DNA of 11,380 nucleotides from assembly GCA_019247865.1 (NCBI GenBank), contig JAFBAJ010000245.1:1-11380 (forward strand), in the 5' to 3' direction. Position numbers and translations under genes: made by a program. Of the stretch, positions 1 through 11,380 are shown piece by piece. Within the stretch, counting starts at the first letter, position 1, and every line of letters starts with the position of its first letter. Origin of the DNA: Acidobacteriota bacterium (GTDB lineage: Bacteria > Acidobacteriota > Blastocatellia > Pyrinomonadales > Pyrinomonadaceae). The notes under the pieces were generated by a model that saw only the letters and a program-made list of their open reading frames with translations, had not been told where the DNA came from and ran no database searches.

Positions 1-467
1 ACCTGACCCGTCCCGTCGCCAGTGCCCGTCGAATTGGCAGGGCCTGTTCCCGGCCCGCCGAAAGTTCCCGGATCGCTGTTCGCGTTGCCGAGCGCGACGG
101 GCACGCCGCGCGGAATCGGCGGCACGTTTGAACCCGTGTTCGAAACTTTGTCCGGCACTCGGGTCGGGTCGTCCGCGCGGTCGATCAGCTCAGTTCTCTG
201 GGCGACAGCGTTTCTGTCATTCGCATTATTGGCTGCGCGCGGGGCTGCGTTGCGCGTTTCGGGAGCGGGCTGTTCGGCCTGCGTCGGCGCGAGCAGCACG
301 ATAAAGTCAAGGTCTCGATTTTCCAGGTGCGCGTCGTAGGCGTAGATGCTGACGACGCCGAGGCACATGACGACCAGTGTATAACCGGCGAGCGTGGCGA
401 GCAGGAACCGTCCCCGTCGCTTGAGCTCTTTCTGATGTGAAGCGGACTCGACTAGATTCGCAAACAT
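1..467 (-). CDS. TonB-like energy transducer, N-terminal part (partial)
   Basis: This minus-strand frame starts at ATG 467-465 behind a very strong purine-rich Shine-Dalgarno stretch (complement of about 470-482). It stays open for 155 codons and runs off the left edge, so the C-terminus is missing. The protein opens MFANLVESASHQKELKRRG, a short basic cytoplasmic segment. One hydrophobic membrane segment follows at about residues 21-43, ending VSIYAYD. Beyond residue 65 it is a long Pro/Ala/Asn/Gly-rich linker. A basic N-terminus, single anchor and disordered periplasmic linker is the layout of TonB-type proteins, and this N-terminus resembles those I recall annotated as energy transducer TonB in Acidobacteriota. 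The diagnostic C-terminal TonB domain lies outside the window, so another single-pass periplasmic protein cannot be excluded. The divergent 182-bp gap to the next gene probably holds promoters for both directions; I saw no convincing pair of boxes. Confidence 0.6.
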   Translation of the reverse strand, partial: MFANLVESASHQKELKRRGRFLLATLAGYTLVVMCLGVVSIYAYDAHLENRDLDFIVLLAPTQAEQPAPETRNAAPRAANNANDRNAVAQRTELIDRADDPTRVPDKVSNTGSNVPPIPRGVPVALGNANSDPGTFGGPGTGPANSTGTGDGTGQ

Positions 468-649
468 TCTCCTCTTCCTCCCAATCATCAAAGCCGGTGC
501 CAAACGGGTCGCTGGGAGCGTCCTCTGCACACTTAGACCCCGCCCCGCAGGAGCTTGTTCCCGAAATCGCAAAAGGTCTGTACACCGCGCCCCATTTCTT
601 TTAGGATGGACGGCGTTCAATCAATCCGGATTCAGAGGAAGAAAAGAGT

Positions 650-958
650 ATGGCGACGAGTGCAGAATGGCATGAGAGTTATGCGGACATGAGCGAGCTG
701 GCGCGCAACTTTTCGCGCGCGGTGAAATCCGTGCAGGAGGAGCTGGAAGCCGTCGACTGGTACAACCAGCGCGCGCAGGCGACGACGGACGAACAGCTCC
801 GCCGCATCCTCGAACACAACCGCGACGAAGAGATCGAGCACGCCATGATGGCGCTCGAATACCTGCGCCGCATCAATCCAGTCTTTGACAAACATATGCG
901 TACTTATCTCTTCACGCAGGGCGACATTCTGGAGATAGAGGAAAAGGCCGAGGATTAA
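650..958 (+). CDS. Encapsulated-ferritin-like protein (EncFtn family), lacking a visible encapsulin-targeting tail
   Basis: This 102-residue, mostly helical protein closely resembles the Rhodospirillum rubrum EncFtn family, whose members form annular decamers of two-helix subunits with a di-iron ferroxidase centre at the subunit interface. Diagnostic stretches are EELEAVDWYNQR (residues 30-41), HNRDEEIEH (56-64) and the C-terminal RTYLFTQGDI (84-93). By alignment from memory, the iron ligands E32/E62/H65 of R. rubrum correspond to E31, E61 and H64 here. W37 and Y38 and the acidic entry residues E30 and E33 are also present. A purine-rich SD (about 635-647) precedes ATG 650. Classical EncFtn proteins end in a short targeting peptide and sit next to an encapsulin shell gene. 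Here the protein stops at EIEEKAED with no such peptide, and the next gene is a dehydrogenase. Expected role: Fe(II) oxidation or storage; whether it is compartmentalised is unknown. Confidence 0.85.
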   Translation: MATSAEWHESYADMSELARNFSRAVKSVQEELEAVDWYNQRAQATTDEQLRRILEHNRDEEIEHAMMALEYLRRINPVFDKHMRTYLFTQGDILEIEEKAED

Positions 959-1042
959 AAGCCCGACACGTCCCGGCCGCTCTGTTTCGTTGCGTGAAGC
1001 CTTCATCAAGCTATCATCTAACCTCGATTAAAGGAGAAACGC

Positions 1043-2323
1043 ATGCCCCCACAAGCAGAGACCGCGAGGTCTTCGTCTGAAGAACTGAACCCGTTCGAGA
1101 TCGCCAAGCAGCAGTTCGACCGCGCGGCCGAATATCTGGAGCTGGAAGAGTCCATGCGCAATGTGCTGCGCCACGCCAAGCGACAGCTCATCGTCTCGAT
1201 CCCGGTCAAGATGGACAGCGGCCGCGTAGAGGTCTTTGAAGGCTATCGCGTCCAGCACAACATCGCGCGCGGCCCCGCCAAAGGCGGCATCCGCTATCAC
1301 CCGCAGGTCACGCTCGACGAGGTCAAAGCACTGGCCTCGTGGATGACCTGGAAGTGCGCGACCGTCGGCATCCCGTACGGCGGCGGCAAGGGCGGAGTGG
1401 TCTGCGATCCCAAGAGCATGTCGCGCGATGAGCTGGAACGCCTGACGCGCCGTTATGCCTTCGAGATCGCGCCCATCATCGGCCCCGGCCGAGACATTCC
1501 AGCGCCGGACGTGTACACGGACGAGCAGACGATGGCCTGGATCATGGACACCATCTCGATGGTCAAGGGGCACACGGAGCTGGCGGTCGTGACGGGCAAG
1601 CCGCTCTCGCTCGGCGGCTCGGCCGGACGCGCCGAGGCGACTGCGCGCGGCGGTCTTTACGTCCTGCGCGAAGCTTGCCGCGTCAAAGGGATTGACCTCA
1701 AAGGCGCGCGCGTCGTCGTGCACGGCTTCGGCAACGCGGGCGCGAACTTTGCCCGGCTGGTGGCGGGCGACGGAGCGCGTGTCATCGCCGCCTGCGATTC
1801 GAGTTGCGGCGTCTACGCCGAGAACGGCATCAACGTCGAAGCGGCCCTGCGCCACAAGGCCGAGACGGGCTCCCTGCAGGGTCTGGATAACACGCAGGAG
1901 ATCGGCTGCGAGGAGATTCTGGAGCTGGACTGCGACATCCTCGTCCCTTCCGCGCTGGAGAACAGCATCACGCTCGCCAACGTCGAACGCGTCAAAACAC
2001 GCATCATCATCGAGCTGGCGAACGGCCCGACCACTCCCGGCTCAGACCGCATCCTGGCGGACGCGGGCGTCTTTCTCGTCCCGGACATTCTGGCGAACGC
2101 GGGCGGCGTCACCGTCAGCTACTACGAATGGGTGCAGGATCAGTACTCTTTCTTCTGGTCCGAGAATCAGGTCAACGACACGCTGGAACAGACGATGCGC
2201 ACGGCCTTCCGCTCCGTGCACGAGACGGCCAACCTGCACCAGACGGACATGCGCACGGGCGCTTACATTCTCGCCGTTGACCGCGTCGCCAAAGCGACCA
2301 GCGTCCGCGGCATCTTTCCCTGA
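1043..2323 (+). CDS. gdhA: Glu/Leu/Phe/Val dehydrogenase, probably glutamate dehydrogenase
   Basis: The 426-residue protein matches the hexameric glutamate dehydrogenase family, which reversibly converts L-glutamate, water and NAD(P)+ to 2-oxoglutarate, ammonium and NAD(P)H in the cytosol. The N-terminal dimerisation/substrate domain carries GPAKGGIRYHP (K80), MTWKCA (K104) and the signature VGIPYGGGKGG with catalytic K116. The expected acidic catalytic residue is D156 in PAPDV. The Rossmann domain begins near residue 200 with GFGNAG at 228-233 and D252 after the second strand. The substrate-contacting Ser is S360 in VSYYEW. Length and motif order are normal, with no truncation. The start is fixed by AAGGAG at 1031-1036, seven bases before ATG. 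The 84-bp gap after the ferritin-like gene allows either co-transcription or its own promoter. Branched-chain or phenylalanine dehydrogenases share this fold, and cofactor preference cannot be read reliably here. Confidence 0.9.
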   Translation: MPPQAETARSSSEELNPFEIAKQQFDRAAEYLELEESMRNVLRHAKRQLIVSIPVKMDSGRVEVFEGYRVQHNIARGPAKGGIRYHPQVTLDEVKALASWMTWKCATVGIPYGGGKGGVVCDPKSMSRDELERLTRRYAFEIAPIIGPGRDIPAPDVYTDEQTMAWIMDTISMVKGHTELAVVTGKPLSLGGSAGRAEATARGGLYVLREACRVKGIDLKGARVVVHGFGNAGANFARLVAGDGARVIAACDSSCGVYAENGINVEAALRHKAETGSLQGLDNTQEIGCEEILELDCDILVPSALENSITLANVERVKTRIIIELANGPTTPGSDRILADAGVFLVPDILANAGGVTVSYYEWVQDQYSFFWSENQVNDTLEQTMRTAFRSVHETANLHQTDMRTGAYILAVDRVAKATSVRGIFP

Positions 2324-2349
2324 GAGCTGTTTGAAAGCCGCCGGTCAAA

Positions 2350-2487
2350 GCTCCGTCGGGAGCGAGCTGTTTTCGCAGCCCTTCAGGAGCGAGCCGTTTT
2401 CGCCGCTCCGTGAGGAGCAAGATGTTTTCGAAGCTCCGTAGGAGCGAGATGTTCTCTCAGCTCCGTAGGAGCTGGATGTTTATAGCC
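2350..2487 (+). repeat. Tandem hairpin repeats, family A (five units, 27-28 bp period)
   Basis: Five adjacent units start at about 2350, 2378, 2405, 2433 and 2460. The typical unit is GCTCCGTAGGAGC followed by GAGATGTTTTC or GATGTTTATAGC. Each unit contains a short palindrome (GCTCC/GGAGC around a 3-4-base loop), best formed in units 1 and 3-5 and decayed in unit 2. The array begins directly after gdhA and could act as structured 3' UTR or a barrier to read-through. No open frame of note crosses it. Confidence 0.85.
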
Positions 2488-2506
2488 CCTCCAGTCTCCC
2501 ACAGAT

Positions 2507-2549
2507 GAGCTCCGTCAGGAGCGGAATATGTCGCTCCTACCGGAGCTTC
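2507..2549. repeat. Head-to-head pair of family-A units forming a large inverted repeat
   Basis: Positions 2508-2523 and 2532-2547 are reverse complements at 14 of 16 positions around the 8-base loop GAATATGT. Each arm also contains its own small palindrome (GCTCC...GGAGC), so either one long hairpin or two small ones can form. This is the point where the repeat array switches orientation. Confidence 0.85.
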
Positions 2550-2570
2550 AAATCGGGTGGCGGCTGACGG

Positions 2571-2830
2571 GCTATAAACATGTCGCCGCTCCGCGGCTAT
2601 AAACATGACGCCGCTCTGCGGTTATTAATCATGACCGCTCCGCGGCTCTTCATGACGCCGCCTTGCGGCTCTAAACATTCCGCCGCTCTGCGGCTTTACG
2701 CTATTTGACGCTCTGCGGCTATTAAATTATGCCGCCGCTCTGCGGCTATTAAATTATGCCGCCGCTCTGCGGCTATTAAATTATGCTGACGCTCTGCGGC
2801 TTTTAATCATGCCGCCGTTCTGCGGCTTAA
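2571..2830 (-). repeat. Tandem hairpin repeats, family B (ten units), inverted relative to family A
   Basis: Ten short palindromes of the form CCGC-TCT-GCGG are centred at about 2591, 2616, 2640, 2663, 2688, 2713, 2740, 2767, 2794 and 2820, spaced 23-27 bp. Each is followed by an AT-rich spacer, CTATAAACATGACG in the first units drifting to CTATTAAATTATG in the later ones. Units at 2731-2757 and 2758-2784 are identical over 27 bp, a recent duplication. The spacer GGCTATAAACATG is the reverse complement of the family-A tail ATGTTTATAGCC, which is why this block is assigned to the opposite strand. The array ends about 25 bp before the next start codon. Confidence 0.85.
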
Positions 2831-2853
2831 AAACTTTCTTAGAGAGAAAAAAG

Positions 2854-3216
2854 ATGGATGACAAGATCAACGTCTACGAGAAGCCGACTTGAACCAAATG
2901 CCGAGAGGCCGCCCGCCTGCTCCGTGAGAGCGGCATTCCGTTCGAGAAGATCAACTATTACATCGAGCCGCTCAGCGCAGAGAAGCTGCGCGAGCTGCTC
3001 GGCAAAATGCAGCTCAAACCGCGCGACCTGCTCCGCACGAGCGAGCCCATCTACCGCGAACTGCATCTAAAAGAGAGCACGCACACAGACGATGAATTGA
3101 TCGCCCTGATGGTCGAACACCCGGACCTCATCCAGCGTCCCATCGTCGAACGCGGCACGCGCGCCGTCCTCGGGCGGCCCACGGAAAATATCAAGGAATT
3201 GTTGGAACGGTCTTAG
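2854..3216 (+). CDS. Putative selenoprotein: ArsC/Spx-family reductase with Sec (in-frame UGA) in a UxxC motif
   Basis: From ATG 2854 the frame reads MDDKINVYEKPT, then TGA at 2890-2892, then TKCREAARLL and on to TAG at 3214-3216. That is 120 residues if the UGA is read as selenocysteine (U13). The remainder is a full ArsC/Spx thioredoxin-fold protein. Spacing matches E. coli ArsC exactly from memory: catalytic C12 corresponds to U13, and the arsenate-binding R60, R94 and R107 to R61 (DLLRTSEP), R95 (LIQRPIV) and R108 (LGRPTE). C16 gives a U-T-K-C redox pair like the CxxC of Spx-type members. No ATG, GTG or TTG occurs in frame between the UGA and ATG 3007, so a conventional call would keep only residues 52-120 and lose the active site. 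A SECIS-like hairpin lies downstream of the UGA. Only a weak purine-rich SD (about 2841-2853) is visible. The stop lies 2 bp before radA, implying co-transcription. Substrate is unknown: arsenate, or a protein or small-molecule disulfide. The alternative is a nonsense mutation of a Cys codon. Confidence 0.8.
2915..2934 (+). promoter_or_regulatory. Candidate bacterial SECIS element (Sec insertion hairpin)
   Basis: Directly downstream of the in-frame UGA (2890-2892) the RNA can pair 2915-2917 (GCC) with 2932-2934 (GGC), bulge a single U at 2918, and pair 2919-2922 (GCUC) with 2928-2931 (GAGC). The apical loop 2923-2927 is CGUGA. A bulged U in the upper stem and a GU in the apical loop are the features I recall as recognised by SelB in E. 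coli fdhF. The loop G lies 31 nt after the UGA, within the range I recall for bacterial SECIS elements. Not folded computationally. Confidence 0.6.
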
Positions 3217-3218
3217 GG

Positions 3219-4592
<1,374 letters not shown>

Positions 4593-4600
4593 ATTGTAAT

Positions 4601-4680
4601 TGTAGGGGCAGGGCTGGTCCCTGCCCGTGTGTTCAGTAAATCGAGCGGGCAGGGACCAGCCCTGCCCCTACATTTTTTTT
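4601..4680. repeat. REPIN-like inverted hairpin doublet with T-run, possible terminator
   Basis: Positions 4601-4627 and 4646-4672 are perfect 27-bp inverted repeats around an 18-bp loop, followed by eight T (4673-4680). Each arm is itself a hairpin: GGGCAGGG (4606-4613) pairs with CCCTGCCC (4619-4626), and 4647-4654 pairs with 4660-4667. Two inverted hairpins back to back is the layout of REP doublets (REPINs) or small MITE-like elements. The strong stem plus T-run would also work as an intrinsic terminator for radA, though the T-run abuts the next start codon. Confidence 0.85.
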
Positions 4681-4683
4681 GCG

Positions 4684-5445
4684 ATGCCTGCACAAAACCT
4701 CAGAGGCTTTACAGAGCGCGTTGCTTTGGTGACGAACGGGTCGCGCGGGATCGGCCGCGCGGTCGCGTTGCAGCTTGCGTTGCAGGGCGCGTACGTCATC
4801 GTCAACTATCGCGATGCGGAGGACGAGAGCGTGGTCAACGAGCTGCGCGAGCTGGGCACGCTGGCGCATGCTGTGCGTGGAGATGTCTCGCGCAGCGCGG
4901 ATGTGCGGCTGATGTTTCTGGCAATCGAAGAGACTTTCGGGCGGCTCGACCTGCTGGTCAATAACGCTTACGCCAATCATGAAGCGACGCTCGATGAGTT
5001 GACTGAAGAGACGTGGGACAGGGTTCTGGGACTCACGCTCAAGGGCGCTTTCCTCTGCTCGCAGGCGGCGGCGCGCTTGATGCGGAAGCGTCCCGCTCCG
5101 GCCATCGTCAATATCTTTTCCGAAACAGCTCTGAGCGGAAGCGCGGGCAGCGCCGCCCTCGTCGCGGCGCAGGCCGGTCTCGCCGGTCTGACAAAAGCTC
5201 TGGCGCGCGAACTCTCGCCGCCCATACGCGTCAATGGCGTGGCCGTCGGGGGCGCACAAAACGCTCTGACCATCAATTATTACGACTGGACTCAGTCCCT
5301 CAAGCGCCCGCACGTCAAGCGAGACAAGCCGTCCGGCTCGGCCCGGCTGGCGCCGGATGACATCGCACGCGCCTGCCTCTACCTGCTCTCATCCGACGCG
5401 GCCGCCATCAACGGGCAAACGCTCGTCGTCGGCAGCGACAAGTAG
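4684..5445 (+). CDS. SDR-fold protein with degenerate catalytic site
   Basis: The 253-residue protein clearly has the short-chain dehydrogenase/reductase fold. It has a nucleotide-binding glycine motif TNGSRGIG (17-24), NYRD after the second strand, the GDVS region (67-70), and NNAYANH (93-99) where the family has NNAG. The C-terminus is typical (DDIARACLYLLSSDAAAINGQ). The catalytic tetrad Asn-Ser-Tyr-Lys is mostly gone. By alignment to FabG, only S146 (NIFS) remains; the usual Asn is T118 (LTLKGAF), Tyr is L159 and Lys is Q163 (ALVAAQAG). It probably binds a dinucleotide or a partner without classic SDR chemistry. ATG 4684 is preferred; a GTG at 4627 in frame would translate the repeat doublet. 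No SD is visible because the repeat's T-run lies immediately upstream, so poor translation or leaderless initiation is possible. FabG-like or pteridine-reductase-like SDRs are the nearest relatives; the substrate is unknown. Confidence 0.85.
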   Translation: MPAQNLRGFTERVALVTNGSRGIGRAVALQLALQGAYVIVNYRDAEDESVVNELRELGTLAHAVRGDVSRSADVRLMFLAIEETFGRLDLLVNNAYANHEATLDELTEETWDRVLGLTLKGAFLCSQAAARLMRKRPAPAIVNIFSETALSGSAGSAALVAAQAGLAGLTKALARELSPPIRVNGVAVGGAQNALTINYYDWTQSLKRPHVKRDKPSGSARLAPDDIARACLYLLSSDAAAINGQTLVVGSDK

Positions 5446-5480
5446 CCTTTTTTAATCCGCGCCGCCCGCCAAAGCTTTTC

Positions 5481-5510
5481 GTGACGCAAGGGTTACAGGC
5501 GTGTTAAGAT
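5481..5510 (+). promoter_or_regulatory. Candidate sigma70-type promoter with extended -10
   Basis: GTGACG (5481-5486, 4/6 to the -35 consensus) lies 18 bp before TAAGAT (5505-5510, 4/6 to the -10 consensus), with TG one base upstream of the -10 as in extended -10 promoters. Predicted transcription would start around 5517-5519, at or next to ATG 5519, which also lacks an SD. Match strength is modest and this could be chance. Confidence 0.3.
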
Positions 5511-5518
5511 GCCACATT

Positions 5519-6640
5519 ATGCGCACGGACGTTATTCTCATCAGAGTAATCTTCACCGCGATTCTGGTCGCAGCCGGATACGTTCTGCATCCTGTTCCGG
5601 GCGAGCCCTGGGTTTCCGCCGCCGTTGCCGCCGCCGTCGCCATCGCCATCATTTTTTTCGAGATGCGGATTCGTCGCGCCAGCCTCAAGACGCTGATCGG
5701 CGCGGCCGTCGGCTCGATCCTGGGCATCATCGGGGCGTTTCTGATCGGCCTGCTCATTATCTATCAGCAGTCGGTCGCGGTCTCTCCCGGCACGCGCGCT
5801 TTTCTGACGCTCGCACTGATCCTCTTTATGGCTTATGTCGGCCTGATGGTCGGCGCGGCCAAAGGCGAGTATCTGGACCTGGCTGCCCTGGGCGGCATCT
5901 TCAGCGACAAGACCGCGCGGCGCGACCTCAAGATTCTGGACACCTCGGTCATCATCGACGGGCGCATCGCGGATGTCGCGGAGACAGGATTTTTGACGGG
6001 CTCGCTGATCATCCCGCAGTTCATCCTGCGCGAGTTGCAGCAGGTCGCGGATTCGCCCGACTCCTCCAAGCGCCAGCGCGGCCGTCGCGGCCTCGACATG
6101 CTCAATCGCCTGCAGAACAACAGCACGCTCGACATCCAGATCGTCGAAACGGATTTCCCGGCCGTGCGCGAAGTGGACCTGAAGCTCATCGAGCTCGGCA
6201 AGCAGCTCGATGCAGTGATCGTGACCAACGATTTCAACCTCAACAAGGTCTCGCAACTGCGCGGCGTGAGCGTGCTCAATATCAACGAGCTGGCGAACGC
6301 TTTGAAGCCTGTCGTCCTGCCGGGCGAAGCGATGCGCGTCTTCATCCTGAAAGAGGGCAAAGAGTACAATCAGGGCGTCGCCTATCTGGATGACGGGACG
6401 ATGGTCGTGGTGGACAACGCGCGCCGCCTGATCGGTAAGAACGCGGACATCGCCGTCACCAGCGTCCTCCAGACGACGGCCGGCAAGATGATCTTCGGCC
6501 GCCTGTGGGAAGAGTCCGACAGCGGCAACGGCGGCTACAACGATTCGCGCGCCAACGGCACGCGCCGCCCGGCGCGCGACCTGCGCGCCACCAGCATCGC
6601 CCCCAATCGCGCAGACCATAGCGAGCCTGTAACTGAATGA
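5519..6640 (+). CDS. YacL-like membrane PIN-TRAM domain protein
   Basis: The 373-residue protein begins with four hydrophobic segments at about residues 6-26, 31-47, 57-82 and 92-113. A PIN ribonuclease domain follows (about 137-262), and a TRAM RNA-binding domain (about 266-328) ends TTAGKMIFGR. PIN acidic residues are visible: D141 and D147 in ILDTSVIIDGR, E172 in FILRELQ, and D238 in VTNDFNLNK. The last ~45 residues are a low-complexity, Arg/Asn/Ser-rich tail. This is the architecture of B. subtilis YacL, an inner-membrane protein with a cytosolic PIN nuclease and a nucleic-acid-binding TRAM domain; its RNA target is not known to me. It sits immediately upstream of ispD-ispF, as in Bacillus. 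ATG 5519 is chosen over an in-frame GTG at 5501 because the hydrophobic segment follows closely. No clear SD is seen. Confidence 0.9.
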   Translation: MRTDVILIRVIFTAILVAAGYVLHPVPGEPWVSAAVAAAVAIAIIFFEMRIRRASLKTLIGAAVGSILGIIGAFLIGLLIIYQQSVAVSPGTRAFLTLALILFMAYVGLMVGAAKGEYLDLAALGGIFSDKTARRDLKILDTSVIIDGRIADVAETGFLTGSLIIPQFILRELQQVADSPDSSKRQRGRRGLDMLNRLQNNSTLDIQIVETDFPAVREVDLKLIELGKQLDAVIVTNDFNLNKVSQLRGVSVLNINELANALKPVVLPGEAMRVFILKEGKEYNQGVAYLDDGTMVVVDNARRLIGKNADIAVTSVLQTTAGKMIFGRLWEESDSGNGGYNDSRANGTRRPARDLRATSIAPNRADHSEPVTE

Positions 6641-6643
6641 CTA

Positions 6644-6662
6644 AGGGATATCCAGCATCCCT
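6644..6662 (+). promoter_or_regulatory. Small hairpin over the ispD ribosome binding site
   Basis: AGGGAT (6644-6649) and ATCCCT (6657-6662) are perfect 6-bp inverted repeats around a 7-base loop, ending directly before ATG 6663. The only SD-like sequence for ispD (AAGGGA, 6643-6648) lies in the left arm, so pairing would hide it. It may modulate ispD translation or may be fortuitous. Confidence 0.35.
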
Positions 6663-7370
6663 ATGAACATTGCGATCATCGCCGCAGCCGGGCAGGGCAC
6701 GCGGATGGGTCAGCGTCGAGCCAAGCAGTTTCTGGAGCTGGCCGGGACTCCGATTATCATTCACACGCTTCAGCGATTCGAGCAGTGCCCCCACATACAG
6801 GAGACGGTCGTGGTCCTGCCTGCGCAGGACGTGGCTGGATTTCTCGCCATCGCGGGAAAGCATGGACTCCGTAAGCTGGCGCGCGTGATCCCCGGCGGCG
6901 CAAGCCGCATGGAGTCGGTCTGGCGCGGCTTGCAGGCTATCCGGCCGCAGACGGCTGAAGTCATCGCGGTGCATGACGGCGTGCGCCCCTTCGTCACGCC
7001 CGAAGAGATCGAGCGCACAGTGGCGGCGGCCGAAGAGCATGGAGCAGCAGTGCTGTGCGCGCCCGCGAGCGATACCATCAAAGAGATTCAGGACGGCCGC
7101 GTCGTACGCACGCTCGAACGCGCGCGCCTCGGCCATGCTTTGACGCCGCAGTGCTTTCGTTACGCGCTCCTGCGCAGAGCTTACGAAGCGGCCTTAGCGC
7201 GCGGCCTCGAAGCCACGGATTGCAGCTCCCTCGTCGAAGCTTTGGGCGAGACGGTCATCGTCGTCGAAGGCTCCGCGCGCAACATCAAGATCACGCGGCC
7301 GGAAGACATCGCGTTCGGAGAAATACTCTTGAGACAGGAGGCAGAAGCCAGAAGTCAGAAGCCAGAATAA
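6663..7370 (+). CDS. ispD: 2-C-methyl-D-erythritol 4-phosphate cytidylyltransferase
   Basis: IspD transfers CMP from CTP to 2-C-methyl-D-erythritol 4-phosphate, the third step of the MEP isoprenoid pathway, in the cytosol. The 235-residue protein carries the CTP-binding loop AAAGQGTRMG (7-16) with K21 (KQF), VHDGVRPF (103-110) for the family's HDxxRP motif, SDTIK (136-140), TLERARL for the nucleotide/MEP-binding Arg region, LTPQCF (160-165), TD (185-186) and NIKITRPED (207-215). The last dozen residues (RQEAEARSQKPE) lie beyond the conserved domain and are encoded largely by the left arm of a heptamer inverted repeat, suggesting the natural stop was displaced by repeat insertion. It starts 22 bp after the yacL-like stop and is followed by ispF. 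Confidence 0.95.
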   Translation: MNIAIIAAAGQGTRMGQRRAKQFLELAGTPIIIHTLQRFEQCPHIQETVVVLPAQDVAGFLAIAGKHGLRKLARVIPGGASRMESVWRGLQAIRPQTAEVIAVHDGVRPFVTPEEIERTVAAAEEHGAAVLCAPASDTIKEIQDGRVVRTLERARLGHALTPQCFRYALLRRAYEAALARGLEATDCSSLVEALGETVIVVEGSARNIKITRPEDIAFGEILLRQEAEARSQKPE

Positions 7371-7420
7371 AAACAGCACGCCTTTCATTCAGGCTTCCGG
7401 CTTCTGACTTCTGGCTCCTG
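7342..7420. repeat. Inverted pair of heptamer-repeat arms between ispD and ispF
   Basis: Positions 7342-7367 and 7395-7420 are inverted repeats matching at 24 of 26 positions, separated by 27 bp. Each arm is a run of 7-base units: GCCAGAA, GTCAGAA, GCCAGAA on the left and CTTCTGA, CTTCTGG on the right. The ispD stop codon (7368-7370) directly follows the left arm; ispF starts 13 bp after the right arm. No U-tract follows, so a role as intrinsic terminator is doubtful. Confidence 0.85.
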
Positions 7421-7432
7421 AATTCTGCTTTT

Positions 7433-7909
7433 ATGTTCAGAGTCGGCATCGGCAGTGACACGCATCGTTTGACGAGAGGGCGGCAGCTCGTCCTGGGCGG
7501 CGTGCGTGTGGAGTCGGAGCTGGGCGCGGAAGGCCATTCGGATGCGGACGCGCTGGCGCACGCCATCACGGACGCTATCTTAGGCGCGCTGTGCGAGGGC
7601 GATCTGGGCGTGCATTTCCCTGACCGCGATCCGCGCTGGAAGGATGCAGACAGCTTGCAACTCTTAGCGCGCGTCGTGTGGCTGGCCGGAGAGCGCGGCT
7701 TTCATGTCGTCAACGTGGACGCGACGGTGATGCTCGAACAGCCTAAGCTGCGCCCGTACATCACGGAGATGCGGGAAAAACTGTCGCAGACGCTCGGCGC
7801 GGACGTGAAGTGCGTCAGCGTCAAGGCCAAGACCGGCGAGGGGCTCGACGCCATCGGCGAAGGGCTCGCGATTTCCGCTCAGGCAGTCGTGCTTCTGGAG
7901 AGCGCGTAA
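7433..7909 (+). CDS. ispF: 2-C-methyl-D-erythritol 2,4-cyclodiphosphate synthase
   Basis: IspF cyclises CDP-methylerythritol 2-phosphate to ME-2,4-cyclodiphosphate with release of CMP, as a trimer with a divalent metal at each interface. The 158-residue length is standard. Metal ligands D9 and H11 (GIGSDTHRL) and H43 (LAHAITDA) match E. coli D8, H10 and H42. The substrate loop EGHSDADA (33-40), the GDLGVHFPDRDP stretch (56-67), and K131 with E136 (VSVKAKTGEGLD) are also present. ATG 7433 gives the normal N-terminus; the same frame is open further upstream but overlaps ispD without homology. There is no clear SD, as the upstream sequence belongs to the heptamer repeat. Together with ispD this supplies two non-consecutive MEP-pathway steps; ispE is not in the window. 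Confidence 0.96.
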   Translation: MFRVGIGSDTHRLTRGRQLVLGGVRVESELGAEGHSDADALAHAITDAILGALCEGDLGVHFPDRDPRWKDADSLQLLARVVWLAGERGFHVVNVDATVMLEQPKLRPYITEMREKLSQTLGADVKCVSVKAKTGEGLDAIGEGLAISAQAVVLLESA

Positions 7910-7920
7910 ACACTTTTCAA

Positions 7921-9243
7921 ATGAGACCACAAGACCTGATTCAGAAAAAGCGTGACGGCGGCGAGCTGACGCCGGAGGAGGTCGCGCTCTTCGTGCGCGG
8001 CGTGACCGACGGCGCGTTCGCGGATTATCAGTCCTCCGCGCTGTTGATGGCGATATTTTTTCAGGGGATGAACGAGCGCGAGCAGAGTGCGCTGACGCAG
8101 GAGATGCTGCACTCGGGCGAGATCCTCGATTTCTCCGAGGTCGAAAAGCCTAAGGCCGACAAGCATTCGACGGGCGGCGTCGGCGACAAGACTTCGCTCA
8201 TCATCGCGCCGCTCGCGGCCGCCTGCGGACTCTGCGTGCCGATGATCTCCGGGCGCGGTCTGGGTCACACGGGCGGAACGCTCGATAAGCTCGAAGCGAT
8301 TCCGGGCTATCGCGTGCATCTCTCGCTGACAGAGTTTCGCGCCATCCTGAAACGCGTCGGCTTTGCGATGATGGGGCAGACCGCCGACATCGCGCCCGCT
8401 GATAAGAGGCTCTACGCCCTGCGCGACGCGACGGCGACGGTCGAAGCGATCCCGCTTATCGTGGCTTCGATCATGTCGAAGAAGATGGCCGCAGGGCTCG
8501 ACGCGCTGGTGCTCGACGTGAAGACGGGCAGCGGCGCTTTCATGCGCGAAGAGGAGCGAGCGAGGGAGCTGGCACGCGCGCTCGTCGCGACCGGCAACTC
8601 GTGCGGCGTACGCACCGAAGCCCTCATCACGGATATGAACCAGCCGCTCGGTCGTGCCGTCGGCAACGCGCTCGAAGTTCACGAATGCCTCGCGCTCATG
8701 CGCGGCGAAGCGGACGAGGGCGCGCGACCTGTGCTCGACCTCTCGCTGGAATTGACGGCGCGGATGCTCACGTCCGCCGGGCTCGAAGATGATCTGGAGG
8801 CGGCGCGTGCGCGCGTGCGTCGCGCTCTCGATTCGGGCGCGGCGCTCGAATGCTTCCAGCGTAATGTCGCGGAGCAGGGCGGCGACGCACAGCTCTGCGA
8901 TGAGCCAGCGCACCTGCTCGAAGCAAATCTGCTGGAGGAGAGAGTAGTCGCGCCGCGCGCCGGATTTGTGATAAAAGTTGAGGCAGCAGAAATCGGAAAT
9001 GCTGTCGCCGCGATTGGCGGCGGGCGCGCGCGCATCACAGACCAGATTGACCCGGCGGTCGGCTTCCTCTGTGAAGCCAGGCCCGGCGATGAGGTCGAAG
9101 CCGGAGATGTGCTCGGCCTGCTCTATTGCCGCGACGAGGCGCAGGCGGCCGAGGCCGGCGCGCGGATTCGCGCCGCATACACCATCGCCGACGAGCCGCC
9201 GCCGGACGCTTATCAATTGATTAAGGAAGTAATCACGTTATGA
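7921..9243 (+). CDS. pdp: Pyrimidine-nucleoside (thymidine) phosphorylase
   Basis: This 440-residue member of nucleoside phosphorylase family II splits uridine or thymidine with phosphate into the free base and (deoxy)ribose 1-phosphate. It contains the phosphate loop KHSTGGVGDKTS (81-92), the family signature SGRGLGHTGGTLDKLEAIPG (110-129), and YALRDAT with R168. S183 and K187 lie in VASIMSKK; R168, S183 and K187 have the same numbering I recall for the Geobacillus enzyme. The C-terminal alpha/beta domain (about 340-440) is complete. Broad-specificity Pdp and thymidine-specific DeoA are hard to separate by eye. ATG 7921 lies 11 bp after the ispF stop and begins MRPQDLIQKKRDG, the usual N-terminus; in-frame upstream sequence is non-homologous overlap with ispF. 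The stop overlaps the next start (ATGA), so it is translationally coupled to the nucleoside-binding lipoprotein. Confidence 0.95.
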   Translation: MRPQDLIQKKRDGGELTPEEVALFVRGVTDGAFADYQSSALLMAIFFQGMNEREQSALTQEMLHSGEILDFSEVEKPKADKHSTGGVGDKTSLIIAPLAAACGLCVPMISGRGLGHTGGTLDKLEAIPGYRVHLSLTEFRAILKRVGFAMMGQTADIAPADKRLYALRDATATVEAIPLIVASIMSKKMAAGLDALVLDVKTGSGAFMREEERARELARALVATGNSCGVRTEALITDMNQPLGRAVGNALEVHECLALMRGEADEGARPVLDLSLELTARMLTSAGLEDDLEAARARVRRALDSGAALECFQRNVAEQGGDAQLCDEPAHLLEANLLEERVVAPRAGFVIKVEAAEIGNAVAAIGGGRARITDQIDPAVGFLCEARPGDEVEAGDVLGLLYCRDEAQAAEAGARIRAAYTIADEPPPDAYQLIKEVITL

Positions 9244-10301
9244 AGAGAAGTATCTGGACATCGCTCGCCGTCTTTCTGGCCCTGAGCCTGCTGGCGCTCT
9301 CTTTCTCGTCCTGCCGCATGCAGAGCCGCGCCGCAGACGATAAGACGAAGCTTCACGTCGGCATCGTCTTCGACATCGGCGGCAAGGACGACCGCTCGTT
9401 CAACGCCGCCGCGTGGGAGGGCGCGCGCCGCGCGCGTGATAACTTCCCACTCGTCCTGCGCGATGTCGAGCCGGGCGACCCGACCTCTGTCGAGCCAGCC
9501 CTGCGCGCCTTCGCAGAGCGCGGCTACGACCTCATTATCGGCGTCGGTTTCGCGCAGGCTCCGATCATGCAGCGCGTCGCGGAGGACTACCCGAACCTCA
9601 ACTTTGCGATCATCGACGGCGTGATTCAGAAGCGCGACGCACAGGGCAAACCGATTGAGGGACAGTTCCTGGAGAACACCGCCTCGCTCGTTTTCAAAGA
9701 GCACGAAGGCTCTTATCTGGTCGGCATGATCGCCGCCAAGAAATCGCAGACCGGCACCATCGGATTCATCGGCGGCATGGACATCGGCCTCATCCACCGG
9801 TTCGCGACCGGATACGAAGAGGGCGCGCGCGCGGTCAATCCTAAGATCAAGGTCCTCGTGCAATATGTCGGCGTCACGGATTCGGCCTGGAACAATCCTG
9901 GCAAGGGCAAAGAGTTGGCCGAAGCGCAGATCGGCAGCGGCGCGGATGTCATCTTCACAGCCGCCGGCAACTCCGGCCTCGGAGCGTTCGACGCCGCCGA
10001 GCAGAACAAGAAGTTCGTCATCGGCGTCGACTCCAACCAGAACTGGGTCAAGCCCGGCTACGTCCTGACCAGCATGGTCAAGCGCGTCGACAACGCCGTC
10101 TATCAAATCATACAGGACAAGGTCAACGGCAAGTTTCAGGGCGGCCTCCATGTCTACGGTCTGGACAACGAGGGCGTCGGCTACGCCATGGATCAGTACA
10201 ACGAAAAGCTCGTCCCGCCCGATGTCATTCAGACCGTCGAAGCAGCCAAGCAGAAGATCATCAAGGGCGAGATCAAAGTCACGGACGCGATGTTCAAATA
10301 A
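9240..10301 (+). CDS. BMP family (PnrA-type) nucleoside-binding lipoprotein of an ABC importer
   Basis: The 353-residue protein begins with a lipoprotein signal: basic MKRS, hydrophobic core 5-22, then SFSSC with C25 as probable lipidated residue (the lipobox is slightly non-canonical, with Phe at -3). The mature part is a BMP/PnrA/Med-family type-I periplasmic binding fold, with VFDIGGKDDRSFNAAAWEG (43-61) the hallmark ligand-cleft stretch. Other features are AIIDG with D126, GFIGGMDIG (175-183), and GVDSNQNW with D264. By analogy with Treponema PnrA, D45, N55, D126 and D264 are likely to contact a nucleoside. Co-location and 4-bp overlap with pyrimidine-nucleoside phosphorylase, and a matching ABC ATPase downstream, point to a nucleoside rather than another ligand. 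Purine versus pyrimidine preference cannot be told. Confidence 0.92.
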   Translation: MKRSIWTSLAVFLALSLLALSFSSCRMQSRAADDKTKLHVGIVFDIGGKDDRSFNAAAWEGARRARDNFPLVLRDVEPGDPTSVEPALRAFAERGYDLIIGVGFAQAPIMQRVAEDYPNLNFAIIDGVIQKRDAQGKPIEGQFLENTASLVFKEHEGSYLVGMIAAKKSQTGTIGFIGGMDIGLIHRFATGYEEGARAVNPKIKVLVQYVGVTDSAWNNPGKGKELAEAQIGSGADVIFTAAGNSGLGAFDAAEQNKKFVIGVDSNQNWVKPGYVLTSMVKRVDNAVYQIIQDKVNGKFQGGLHVYGLDNEGVGYAMDQYNEKLVPPDVIQTVEAAKQKIIKGEIKVTDAMFK

Positions 10302-10307
10302 CAGTTT

Positions 10308-10339
10308 TTGTTCTTGGTTCTTAGTCCTTTGTACTTTGC
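10308..10339 (+). repeat. Left heptamer inverted-repeat arm of the S23 cassette
   Basis: Seven-base units based on TTCTTGG, TTCTTAG, TCCTTTG, TACTTTG begin 7 bp after the lipoprotein stop. The arm is the reverse complement of 10747-10778 except at five positions. Confidence 0.85.
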
Positions 10340-10374
10340 TTCTCTTTATCCGAGAGAGTAGGAGATTGGGGGCT

Positions 10375-10794
10375 GTGAGGACAAATTTCGAGAATTTGCA
10401 GGTTTATCGCTTAGCAGAAAACCTTGCGGATGAAGTGTGGTGTATAGTTGGCACATGGGAATCATTCGCACGCGATACAGTCGGCAAACAATTAGTGAGA
10501 GCTGTGGATAGTGTCGGAGCTAATATTGCAGAGGGCTCAGGGCGCGGCGCTCAGAAAGATAATCAGCGTTTCATCCGAATAGCTCGCGGTTCGTTGAATG
10601 AAACTCAACATTGGCTACGTCGAGCTTTTAAAAGAAAACTATTGAGCGCCGAGCAGATTAACACTCTAAAGGCTATTCTGGATGAGCTGGCCCCGCGGCT
10701 TAATGCGTATCTACGATCTATTCCCCATACAAGCATCGAGCCGTTAGCAAAGAACAAAGCACAAAGAACAAAGTACAAAACACAAGATGCTTGA
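10375..10794 (+). CDS. Four-helix-bundle protein, S23 / 23S rRNA intervening-sequence (IVP) family
   Basis: The 139-residue, helix-rich protein matches the S23/IVP family first described as encoded in 23S rRNA intervening sequences, whose relatives include Avd of diversity-generating retroelements. Family landmarks: [13 protein letters not shown] (5-17), the strongly conserved ANIAEGSGR (49-57), [13 protein letters not shown] (65-77), then a last helix to about residue 115. The family forms pentameric nucleic-acid-binding bundles; a cellular role for free-standing copies is not established. GTG 10375 is chosen because AGGAG (10360-10364) lies 10 bases upstream; a TTG at 10366 is too close to it. 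The final ~15 residues ([14 protein letters not shown]) are encoded by the right inverted-repeat arm and are not family sequence. The stop overlaps the ATPase start by 8 bp. GC and codon use are visibly lower (more A/T-ending codons) than in all neighbours, suggesting transfer. Confidence 0.88.
10747..10778 (+). repeat. Right heptamer inverted-repeat arm of the S23 cassette
   Basis: Tandem 7-base units CAAAGAA, CAAAGCA, CAAAGAA, CAAAGTA continue with decay to about 10785. The arm lies inside the 3' end of the S23-type gene and ends just before the ABC ATPase start codon. Confidence 0.85.
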
Positions 10795-11380
10795 ACTCCG
10801 AAACATTACCAAGCGCTTCGGCGACGTGCTGGCGAACGATCACATCAATCTCAAGGTCGAGCCGGGCACGATTCATGCAATCGTGGGCGAGAACGGCGCG
10901 GGCAAGTCGACCGTGATGCGTATCGCTTACGGTTTCTACACGGCGGACGAGGGCGAGATTCTGCTCGACGGCGAGGTGCGGCGGATACAGACGCCGCATG
11001 ACGCCATCGCGCTCGGCGTCGGGATGGTGCACCAGCACTTCATGCTGGTCGAGCCGATGACGGTCGCCGAAAATATCGTGCTCGGCGCGGAGCCGGGCTC
11101 GGCCGCCGCGCTCGACCTGCACGGAGCCGAGAAGAAGATTCGCGCGCTCTCGGAAGAGTTCAAGCTGGCGATTGATCCGAACGCGACCATCGAGAGCCTG
11201 TCGGTCGGGCAGGAGCAGCGCGTCGAGTTGTTGAAAGCACTTTATAGAGACGCGCGGCTGCTCATCTTGGACGAGCCGACGGCCGTGCTGACGCCGCAGG
11301 AGGTCGAAGAGTTCTTCCAGATTCTGCGGCGCATGCGCGAGCAGGGCAAGACGGTCGTCATCATCACGCAGAAGCTCTCG
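10787..11380 (+). CDS. Nucleoside-type ABC importer ATP-binding protein (partial, C-terminus outside window)
   Basis: The 198 visible residues form almost the whole first ABC domain: Walker [10 protein letters not shown] (34-42), Q-loop Q83 in [11 protein letters not shown], signature LSVGQ (138-142) and Walker B LLILDE with E163. The HQHFMLV stretch and [17 protein letters not shown] region resemble the tandem-ABC ATPases (YufO/NupO, RbsA type) that serve BMP-family nucleoside importers, so a second ABC domain and two permease genes are expected beyond the edge. The H-switch histidine, normally in ITHKL, is Gln here (IITQKLS, Q195). ATG 10787 is the natural start ([12 protein letters not shown]); it overlaps the S23-type stop by 8 bp and the repeat arm occupies the SD position, so no SD is seen (AAG before ATG only). 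Confidence 0.92.

Follow-up and report, generated by a model that had tools for sequence, protein, structure and literature searches.

The window analysed here is an 11,380-nucleotide stretch of DNA (contig JAFBAJ010000245.1 of GenBank assembly GCA_019247865.1, positions 1 to 11,380, forward strand) from a metagenome-assembled genome (MAG) of the acidobacterial family Pyrinomonadaceae; the MAG comprises 3.98 Mb in 855 contigs and is 74% complete. On the forward strand, positions 2854-3216 carry a frame that is open from an ATG to a TAG (3214-3216) except for one UGA, at residue 13 (2890-2892). Translated with TGA as selenocysteine (Sec, U), the frame gives a 120-residue protein of the ArsC family. 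Sec13 would be the nucleophile of its active-site motif, U13-T-K-C16, and Cys16 (2899-2901), the second residue of the UxxC motif, is the presumed resolving thiol. The next in-frame ATG, GTG or TTG past the UGA lies at 3007-3009 (Met52), and ordinary gene calling yields a 69-residue fragment beginning there, which is already in the protein collection as P0122. The original prediction for this DNA had described a single family-consistent frame across one TGA, without an alternative start between the UGA and Met52, and both features hold. A predicted selenocysteine insertion sequence (SECIS) hairpin follows on the same strand at 2917-2933; its stem pairs 2917-2922 with 2928-2933 and its CGUGA loop (2923-2927) lies 30 nt past the UGA. 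Comparison with relatives strongly supports recoding of the UGA, and this is, very probably, a genuine and conserved selenoprotein gene.

Matches to the window protein at E 0.001 were found in 104 of the 119 genomes of the same GTDB family. We read 103 family loci, made up of 96 orthologues and 7 paralogues; the paralogues carry TGC and were kept out of the 96, and weak paralogue matches and the second pieces of split matches, as in G059, G069 and G081, were omitted. Codon 13 is TGA in 59 of the 96 orthologous loci and TGC or TGT in the other 37, with no further codon at this position. Because relatives carry either TGA or cysteine there, the internal stop is almost certainly an instruction for selenocysteine; alternation of Cys and TGA at residue 13 had been named beforehand as a check on the gene, and it was found. 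A sequencing or assembly error that turned a true TGC or TGT into TGA might be suspected in a fragmented MAG with Cys counterparts known in relatives, but TGA recurs in 59 loci and is correlated with the loop of the hairpin described below (55/59 Sec and 8/37 Cys loci), and we give an error next to no chance. Equally improbable is that the UGA is read as Trp or Cys, or through general suppression: we found no support for such readings, the exchange partner is Cys in all 37 non-TGA orthologues, many of these genes terminate in TGA, and under suppression a conserved hairpin would be needless.

The residues directly before the UGA, Y8 to T12, are nearly invariant. This argues against translation stopping at the UGA with the 69-residue C-terminal piece from Met52, or nothing, as the functional product, as does the interchange of Sec and Cys forms; the piece would moreover be without the first two strands, helix 1 and the nucleophile. 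In favour of such a product, gene callers do record pieces of this kind: when relatives of the 69-residue piece were listed, 101 of the best 120 are without the PTC motif and start later, usually at Met. The 101 include the window's own piece, the search admitted proteins of 38-120 residues, which favoured short ones, and the listing does not separate Sec genes from others, so that it shows a habit and not a rate. We consider a functional Met52 piece highly improbable and note that stored entries of this group are often N-terminally truncated and lack the catalytic residue.

The window hairpin has 6 pairs, bounded by a C-C mismatch at 2916/2934, and its 6-bp stem, CGUGA loop and 30-nt distance fit the constraints of the bacterial SECIS model as given in a passage of PMC13188914. 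In the Sec genes generally the stem has 7 pairs and the loop 5 nt, and, counted from the U of the UGA, the stem begins at a distance of 26 nt. The complete set of 7 pairs is present in 43 of 59 Sec loci versus 4 of 37 Cys loci, and a CGTGA or CGGGA loop in 55 of 59 versus 8 of 37. The 45 nt past the UGA reach -7.5 kcal/mol in 57 of 59 Sec loci; the 19-mer of the window hairpin alone, at -7.4, falls just short of this value. As a control, codons were swapped for synonymous ones 1000 times. The mean uninterrupted run of pairs in the Sec genes was 6.42 (of 7) versus 2.48 in the shuffled sequences, with 0 of 1000 shuffles as high, while in the Cys genes it was 2.38 versus 1.69, a value reached in 15 of 1000. 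Three stem pairs vary on both sides. At codon 24, in the loop, 45 of the 59 Sec genes use CGT and 13 use CGG; of the other Arg codons in these genes, 231 of 476 are CGC. Pairing above that of synonymous shuffles, together with this codon choice, shows selection on the RNA. Furthermore, Arg24 is fixed in the Sec proteins (57/57) and free in the Cys proteins (15/36); the RNA therefore constrains the protein. Rfam models gave no match at gathering scores in the window or at the selB locus, which we take as uninformative for bacterial SECIS elements.

Components of the selenocysteine machinery are present in the window MAG. We found selA (538 bits), selB (361.5 bits over two stretches, with EF-Tu domains and two SelB winged-helix domains) and tRNA-Sec (68.6 bits), the last on a contig other than that of selB; ARAGORN placed no tRNA adjoining selB. 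Across the family, selB was detected at E 1e-60 in 54 of 59 Sec genomes versus 24 of 36 Cys-only genomes (p 0.005, kinship ignored). Both selB and selD were missing from 1 of 59 Sec genomes (G016) versus 8 of 36 Cys-only genomes (p 0.002, kinship again ignored), with two weak non-selD matches scored as missing. At E 1e-20, selD was found in 101 of the 119 family genomes (99 over the cut-off), including G026 of the same genus. The family selD genes themselves mostly carry one internal TGA, read as Sec (for example L258, L260 and L261).

Several observations weigh against a functional selenoprotein gene at this locus. The first concern gene integrity: L009, from the same genus, has an additional in-frame TAG, and L095 has a frameshift, both in draft MAGs. 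Such lesions would fit a decaying pseudogene in which mutation had turned the catalytic Cys codon into a stop, leaving the rest as a remnant. However, apart from the TGA itself, the frame stays open for 110 residues or more in 57 of the 59 TGA loci, and downstream of the UGA nonsynonymous divergence (dN) is far below synonymous divergence (dS) in four of five close Sec pairs, with ratios of 0.036-0.081; the fifth pair, L033/L042, has a dN/dS of 0.62 on few changes. The hairpin is conserved beyond coding demands, selA, selB and tRNA-Sec are present, and conservation across relatives tells against decay for the family. A pseudogene is thus very unlikely; of the stops and frameshifts in relatives that the original prediction had listed as evidence that would count against it, two cases exist in a set of TGA genes that is otherwise almost entirely intact. 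Other adverse points concern the RNA. The window sequence alone folds unremarkably (z -1.32 for 51 nt and -2.05 for 61 nt), and the lowest-energy fold of the 51-mer (-15.5 kcal/mol) is branched and retains just the inner four pairs. In addition, the Cys genes have more total pairs than their shuffles (5.41 versus 4.71, 0 of 1000 as high), an excess that may be relic structure or codon habit. With regard to the machinery, a search for the sel genes had been proposed at the outset; selA, selB and tRNA-Sec were found, but selD was not found in the 74% complete MAG, where the best match scored 20.5 bits. Finally, selB went undetected at E 1e-60 in five of the 59 Sec genomes. Two of the five are 93 and 95% complete, and in G016 (95% complete) neither selB nor selD was found. 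The presence of selD in four of these five genomes points to gaps in the drafts. Collectively, the alternation of Cys and UGA, the conserved SECIS hairpin and the presence of selA, selB and tRNA-Sec bear out the earlier claim that Sec replaces the nucleophilic Cys of an ArsC/Spx-family protein.

The family assignment follows from profile and structure comparisons. The window protein scored 72.7 bits against PF03960 (ArsC superfamily; cut-off 24). Its score of 99.8 bits against TIGR00014 (arsenate reductase, glutaredoxin) is under the curated cut-off of 106.05, and that against TIGR01617 (Spx/MgsR regulator), 74.8 bits, narrowly misses the curated cut-off of 75.05. The AlphaFold model has a pLDDT (predicted local distance difference test score) of 88, and its top Foldseek match is 3rdw (E 2.1e-11); the VIA-align list served solely for ranking folds. 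Residues 4-118 align without gaps to residues 3-117 of the E. coli ArsC chain (1jzw/1i9d), such that U13, R61 (3034-3036), R95 (3136-3138) and R108 (3175-3177) fall on E. coli residues 12, 60, 94 and 107. Both the placement of the TGA at the C12 site, giving U-T-K-C, and the exact ArsC spacing of the three arginines had been predicted, and the alignment confirms them. We take C12 of E. coli ArsC to be the nucleophile and R60, R94 and R107 to be the Arg triad of the arsenate site; PDB titles show that C12 and R60 were picked for mutants. C16, R61, R95 and R108 are invariant in all 93 rows of the protein alignment, in which residue 13 is U or C; L009, L095 and L104, each shorter than 100 residues, were excluded. 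By contrast, the 7 paralogues all have AGF or AGY around the Arg108 region.

These data also bear on whether the selenoprotein is a Spx-like redox regulator instead of an enzyme. The near miss to the Spx/MgsR profile notwithstanding, the score against TIGR00014 is higher, and Spx of B. subtilis (1z3e, 3gfk) scores lower than ArsC in sequence and in structure. The ArsC-type R108 is retained in the window protein and invariant among its orthologues, and is absent from the 7 paralogues. We therefore regard a regulator as unlikely. The invariant Arg triad, together with U or C at 13 and C16, favours chemistry like that of ArsC, with the resolving thiol supplied by the protein itself.

In the mechanism that we propose by homology, ribosomes would arrive at UGA13, the hairpin 30 nt downstream would recruit the SelB-Sec-tRNA complex so that Sec is inserted, and translation would continue to a 120-residue protein of the ArsC fold. 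The U13 selenolate, which immediately precedes helix 1 and by homology clusters with R61, R95 and R108, could then attack either an oxyanion, by analogy arsenate, or a substrate in oxidised form. C16 would resolve the adduct as a selenenylsulfide, which a thioredoxin or glutaredoxin-like partner would reduce; the Cys orthologues presumably perform equivalent chemistry via a disulfide. E. coli ArsC relies on glutathione and glutaredoxin. It has Cys12 where the window protein has Sec, and Ser at the +3 position where the window protein has its internal C16, and from this difference we infer reduction by thioredoxin. Arsenate as the physiological substrate is a guess, one that we would place somewhat short of an even bet; failing that, the protein would act as a general thiol/selenol oxidoreductase or reduce some other oxyanion. 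Three results count against arsenate. Of the recurrent neighbours in the fetched flanks, none was recognised as an arsenic gene, the arsenite exporter Acr3 was found in only 34 of the 95 orthologue carriers (other exporters were not searched) and in 38 of the 119 family genomes, and it was not found in the window MAG.

The surroundings of the gene differ between clades. In the window, the upstream neighbour is a Glu/Leu/Phe/Val dehydrogenase (GDH; 1043-2323, forward strand; Pfam ELFV_dehydrog, 252.6 bits), and the downstream neighbour is radA (3219-4592, forward strand), named by eye in agreement with AAA_25, KaiC-type ATPase and zinc-ribbon Pfam matches. The arsC end and the radA start nearly touch (3216/3219). 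Neighbours were taken from fetched flanks as open reading frames of at least 80 residues recurring in at least 4 loci, some representatives being named by Pfam. In the 'KC' clade, GDH precedes the gene at 32 of 36 loci and radA follows it at 31 of 36; of the five loci without radA, three have less than 540 nt of downstream sequence. In the second clade, neither gene was seen at any of 60 loci; recurrent neighbours there are DUF2237 (43), ScpA (43) and DinB (32) by Pfam, and trpS (29) and ScpB (12) as named by eye. Because radA adjoins the gene in one clade only, the link looks like synteny within a lineage, and the coupling of the enzyme to radA that had been suggested was not borne out and was set aside.

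Further features of the locus were noted. An EncFtn-like small protein is encoded at 650-958 (122.5 bits); at L033, L034 and L042 an EncFtn-like protein is the upstream match nearest arsC, with no dehydrogenase match seen. Palindromic tandem repeats of 27 nt form two arrays, at 2349-2481 and 2570-2827, that occupy much of the gap between the dehydrogenase and arsC. The repeat core, GCTCCGTAGGAGC, occurs in 54 copies in the MAG, often clustered, versus 0 for a reversed control, and one cluster of GCTCCGTAGGAGC sits on the selB contig, C174. The repeat hairpin resembles the tip of the SECIS element, a likeness that is probably coincidental because the SECIS element is common to genomes across the family.

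Sec and Cys forms have been exchanged repeatedly in this lineage. A quick protein tree of 132 rows (58 Sec and 74 Cys, repeats of family loci left out) required at least 18 Sec/Cys changes, versus a mean of 43 with shuffled labels, and 6 of these are forced by starred (supported) branches; with 119 columns and 63 open forks, the exact count is soft. A scan of named genome contigs, which is biased towards Cys because one of its two patterns requires the Cys form, retained 80 of 130 loci, and TGA is present in 24 of the 80. The record labels of the TGA forms were mostly Pyrinomonadaceae, Blastocatellia or Acidobacteria, and Cys orthologues also occurred under Melainabacteria/Obscuribacterales, Ignavibacteria, Gemmatimonadetes and others. 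Close counterparts of the two states exist: P0123 (120 residues) is a full-length Cys13 counterpart of the window protein, identical at 107 of the 119 other residues. Three Cys genes, L008, L040 and L087, retain a CGTGA loop and at least 6 pairs. One of them, L040 (genome G034), is sister in the tree to the Sec gene L041 (G035), and this SECIS relic beside a Sec sister points to a recent change from Sec to Cys. The idea that the relic arose through loss of the Sec machinery was dropped, as G034 has a TGA-containing selD; selB was not found in it. Separately, the G098 MAG holds a Cys and a Sec version (L012 and L105) on two contigs. We rejected the idea that these are paralogues: both contigs have the identical GDH-arsC-radA order, and two strains in one bin, perhaps differing in Sec use, are therefore likelier. 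Close Sec and Cys versions, some of the latter with SECIS relics, make it possible to ask what Sec buys and to study the passage of genes between the two states.

Sec-containing ArsC proteins extend beyond the family. In a 396-genome sample of the phylum, 70 genomes had matches at E 1e-15. Of these genomes, 44 belong to families other than that of the window, and 20 of the 45 loci from these 44 genomes have TGA at the active site (at L162, where alignment failed to place the codon, the script shifted it to a nearby in-frame TGA). They fall into types with different hairpins, which are predictions picked by a simple score without a control. The ELICxxTU(S/G)xCRKA type comprises 12 loci, 9 with a GGTC loop 17 nt from the UGA. 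The YHKPTUTSCRKAK type has 3 loci, with a hairpin predicted at 21 nt for two and a different one picked by the script for the third; EKPTUSTCREV has 2 (22 nt) and LKPTUSKCREA 1 (29 nt). Two further types, both UxxS, are represented by a single locus each; the hairpin at one of these loci, L140, is weak, with just 4 pairs. The predicted apical loops lie 17, 21-22, 29 or 30 nt past the UGA across at least four sub-lineages, with differing hairpin sequences, as would be expected had Sec been acquired independently. A wider tree of 184 rows required 24 Sec/Cys changes, 7 of them forced; with its long branches, it does not show whether Sec was gained separately in each type. We tentatively suggest that the ArsC fold is a hot spot of Sec gain and loss in Acidobacteriota, with Sec at the same residue in at least four sub-lineages and repeated Sec/Cys interchange in the window's lineage, and that the shared role may be that of a housekeeping selenol oxidoreductase and not arsenic detoxification. 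Of these results, the wider pattern, in which Sec and Cys are exchanged repeatedly and the SECIS hairpins are separate, is of greatest interest. A Sec-ArsC gene of the UxxS type, without the second Cys, was also seen on a Gemmatimonadota chromosome (L252, CP070823.1); its hairpin, GCTGCTC-CGGGA-GAGCGGC, 30 nt past the UGA, is nevertheless the one found in the acidobacterial genes, and horizontal transfer is possible.

Searches of the open-licence literature returned nothing on Pyrinomonadaceae with selenocysteine, and the terms arsenate and ArsC do not occur in the main text of PMC12013277 and PMC5029168. Sec-containing ArsC proteins as such are known, with UxxS and UxxC types described in passages of PMC2398784, PMC9312934 and PMC13188914. 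The passage of PMC2398784 on the Global Ocean Sampling (GOS) survey lists ArsC 1 (UxxS, pfam03960) and Arsenate reductase 2 (UxxC, cd03032), in line with the statement in the original prediction that such forms had been predicted in metagenomic surveys. ArsC-like selenoproteins of Desulfotalea and Desulfuromonas appear in a passage of PMC1794560, where a table credits Acidobacteria with 3 families and 4 selenoproteins whose names the passage does not give; the passages of PMC2398784 and PMC1794560 do not tie ArsC to Acidobacteriota. As described there, these proteins likewise belong to the ArsC family with Sec at the catalytic Cys, and Arsenate reductase 2 has the UxxC motif in common with the window protein. 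Compared by description, it differs in being assigned to cd03032, whereas for the window protein TIGR00014 is the best-scoring model and the third Arg is retained. The cd03032 domain is of the Spx type. A further UxxC family, NF041106 (ArsC_rel_Se_1, 'ArsC family (seleno)protein'), is named in a passage of the 2026 review PMC13188914; it too is an ArsC-related selenoprotein, but the window protein, at 17.2 bits against a cut-off of 85, is far from membership. The Sec form of the ArsC family is thus already known, and the window protein is a further member of a group that is easily missed. In the passages of these sources, Sec-ArsC proteins come from marine metagenomes and a small number of deltaproteobacteria; the window protein extends them by a large lineage of Acidobacteriota.
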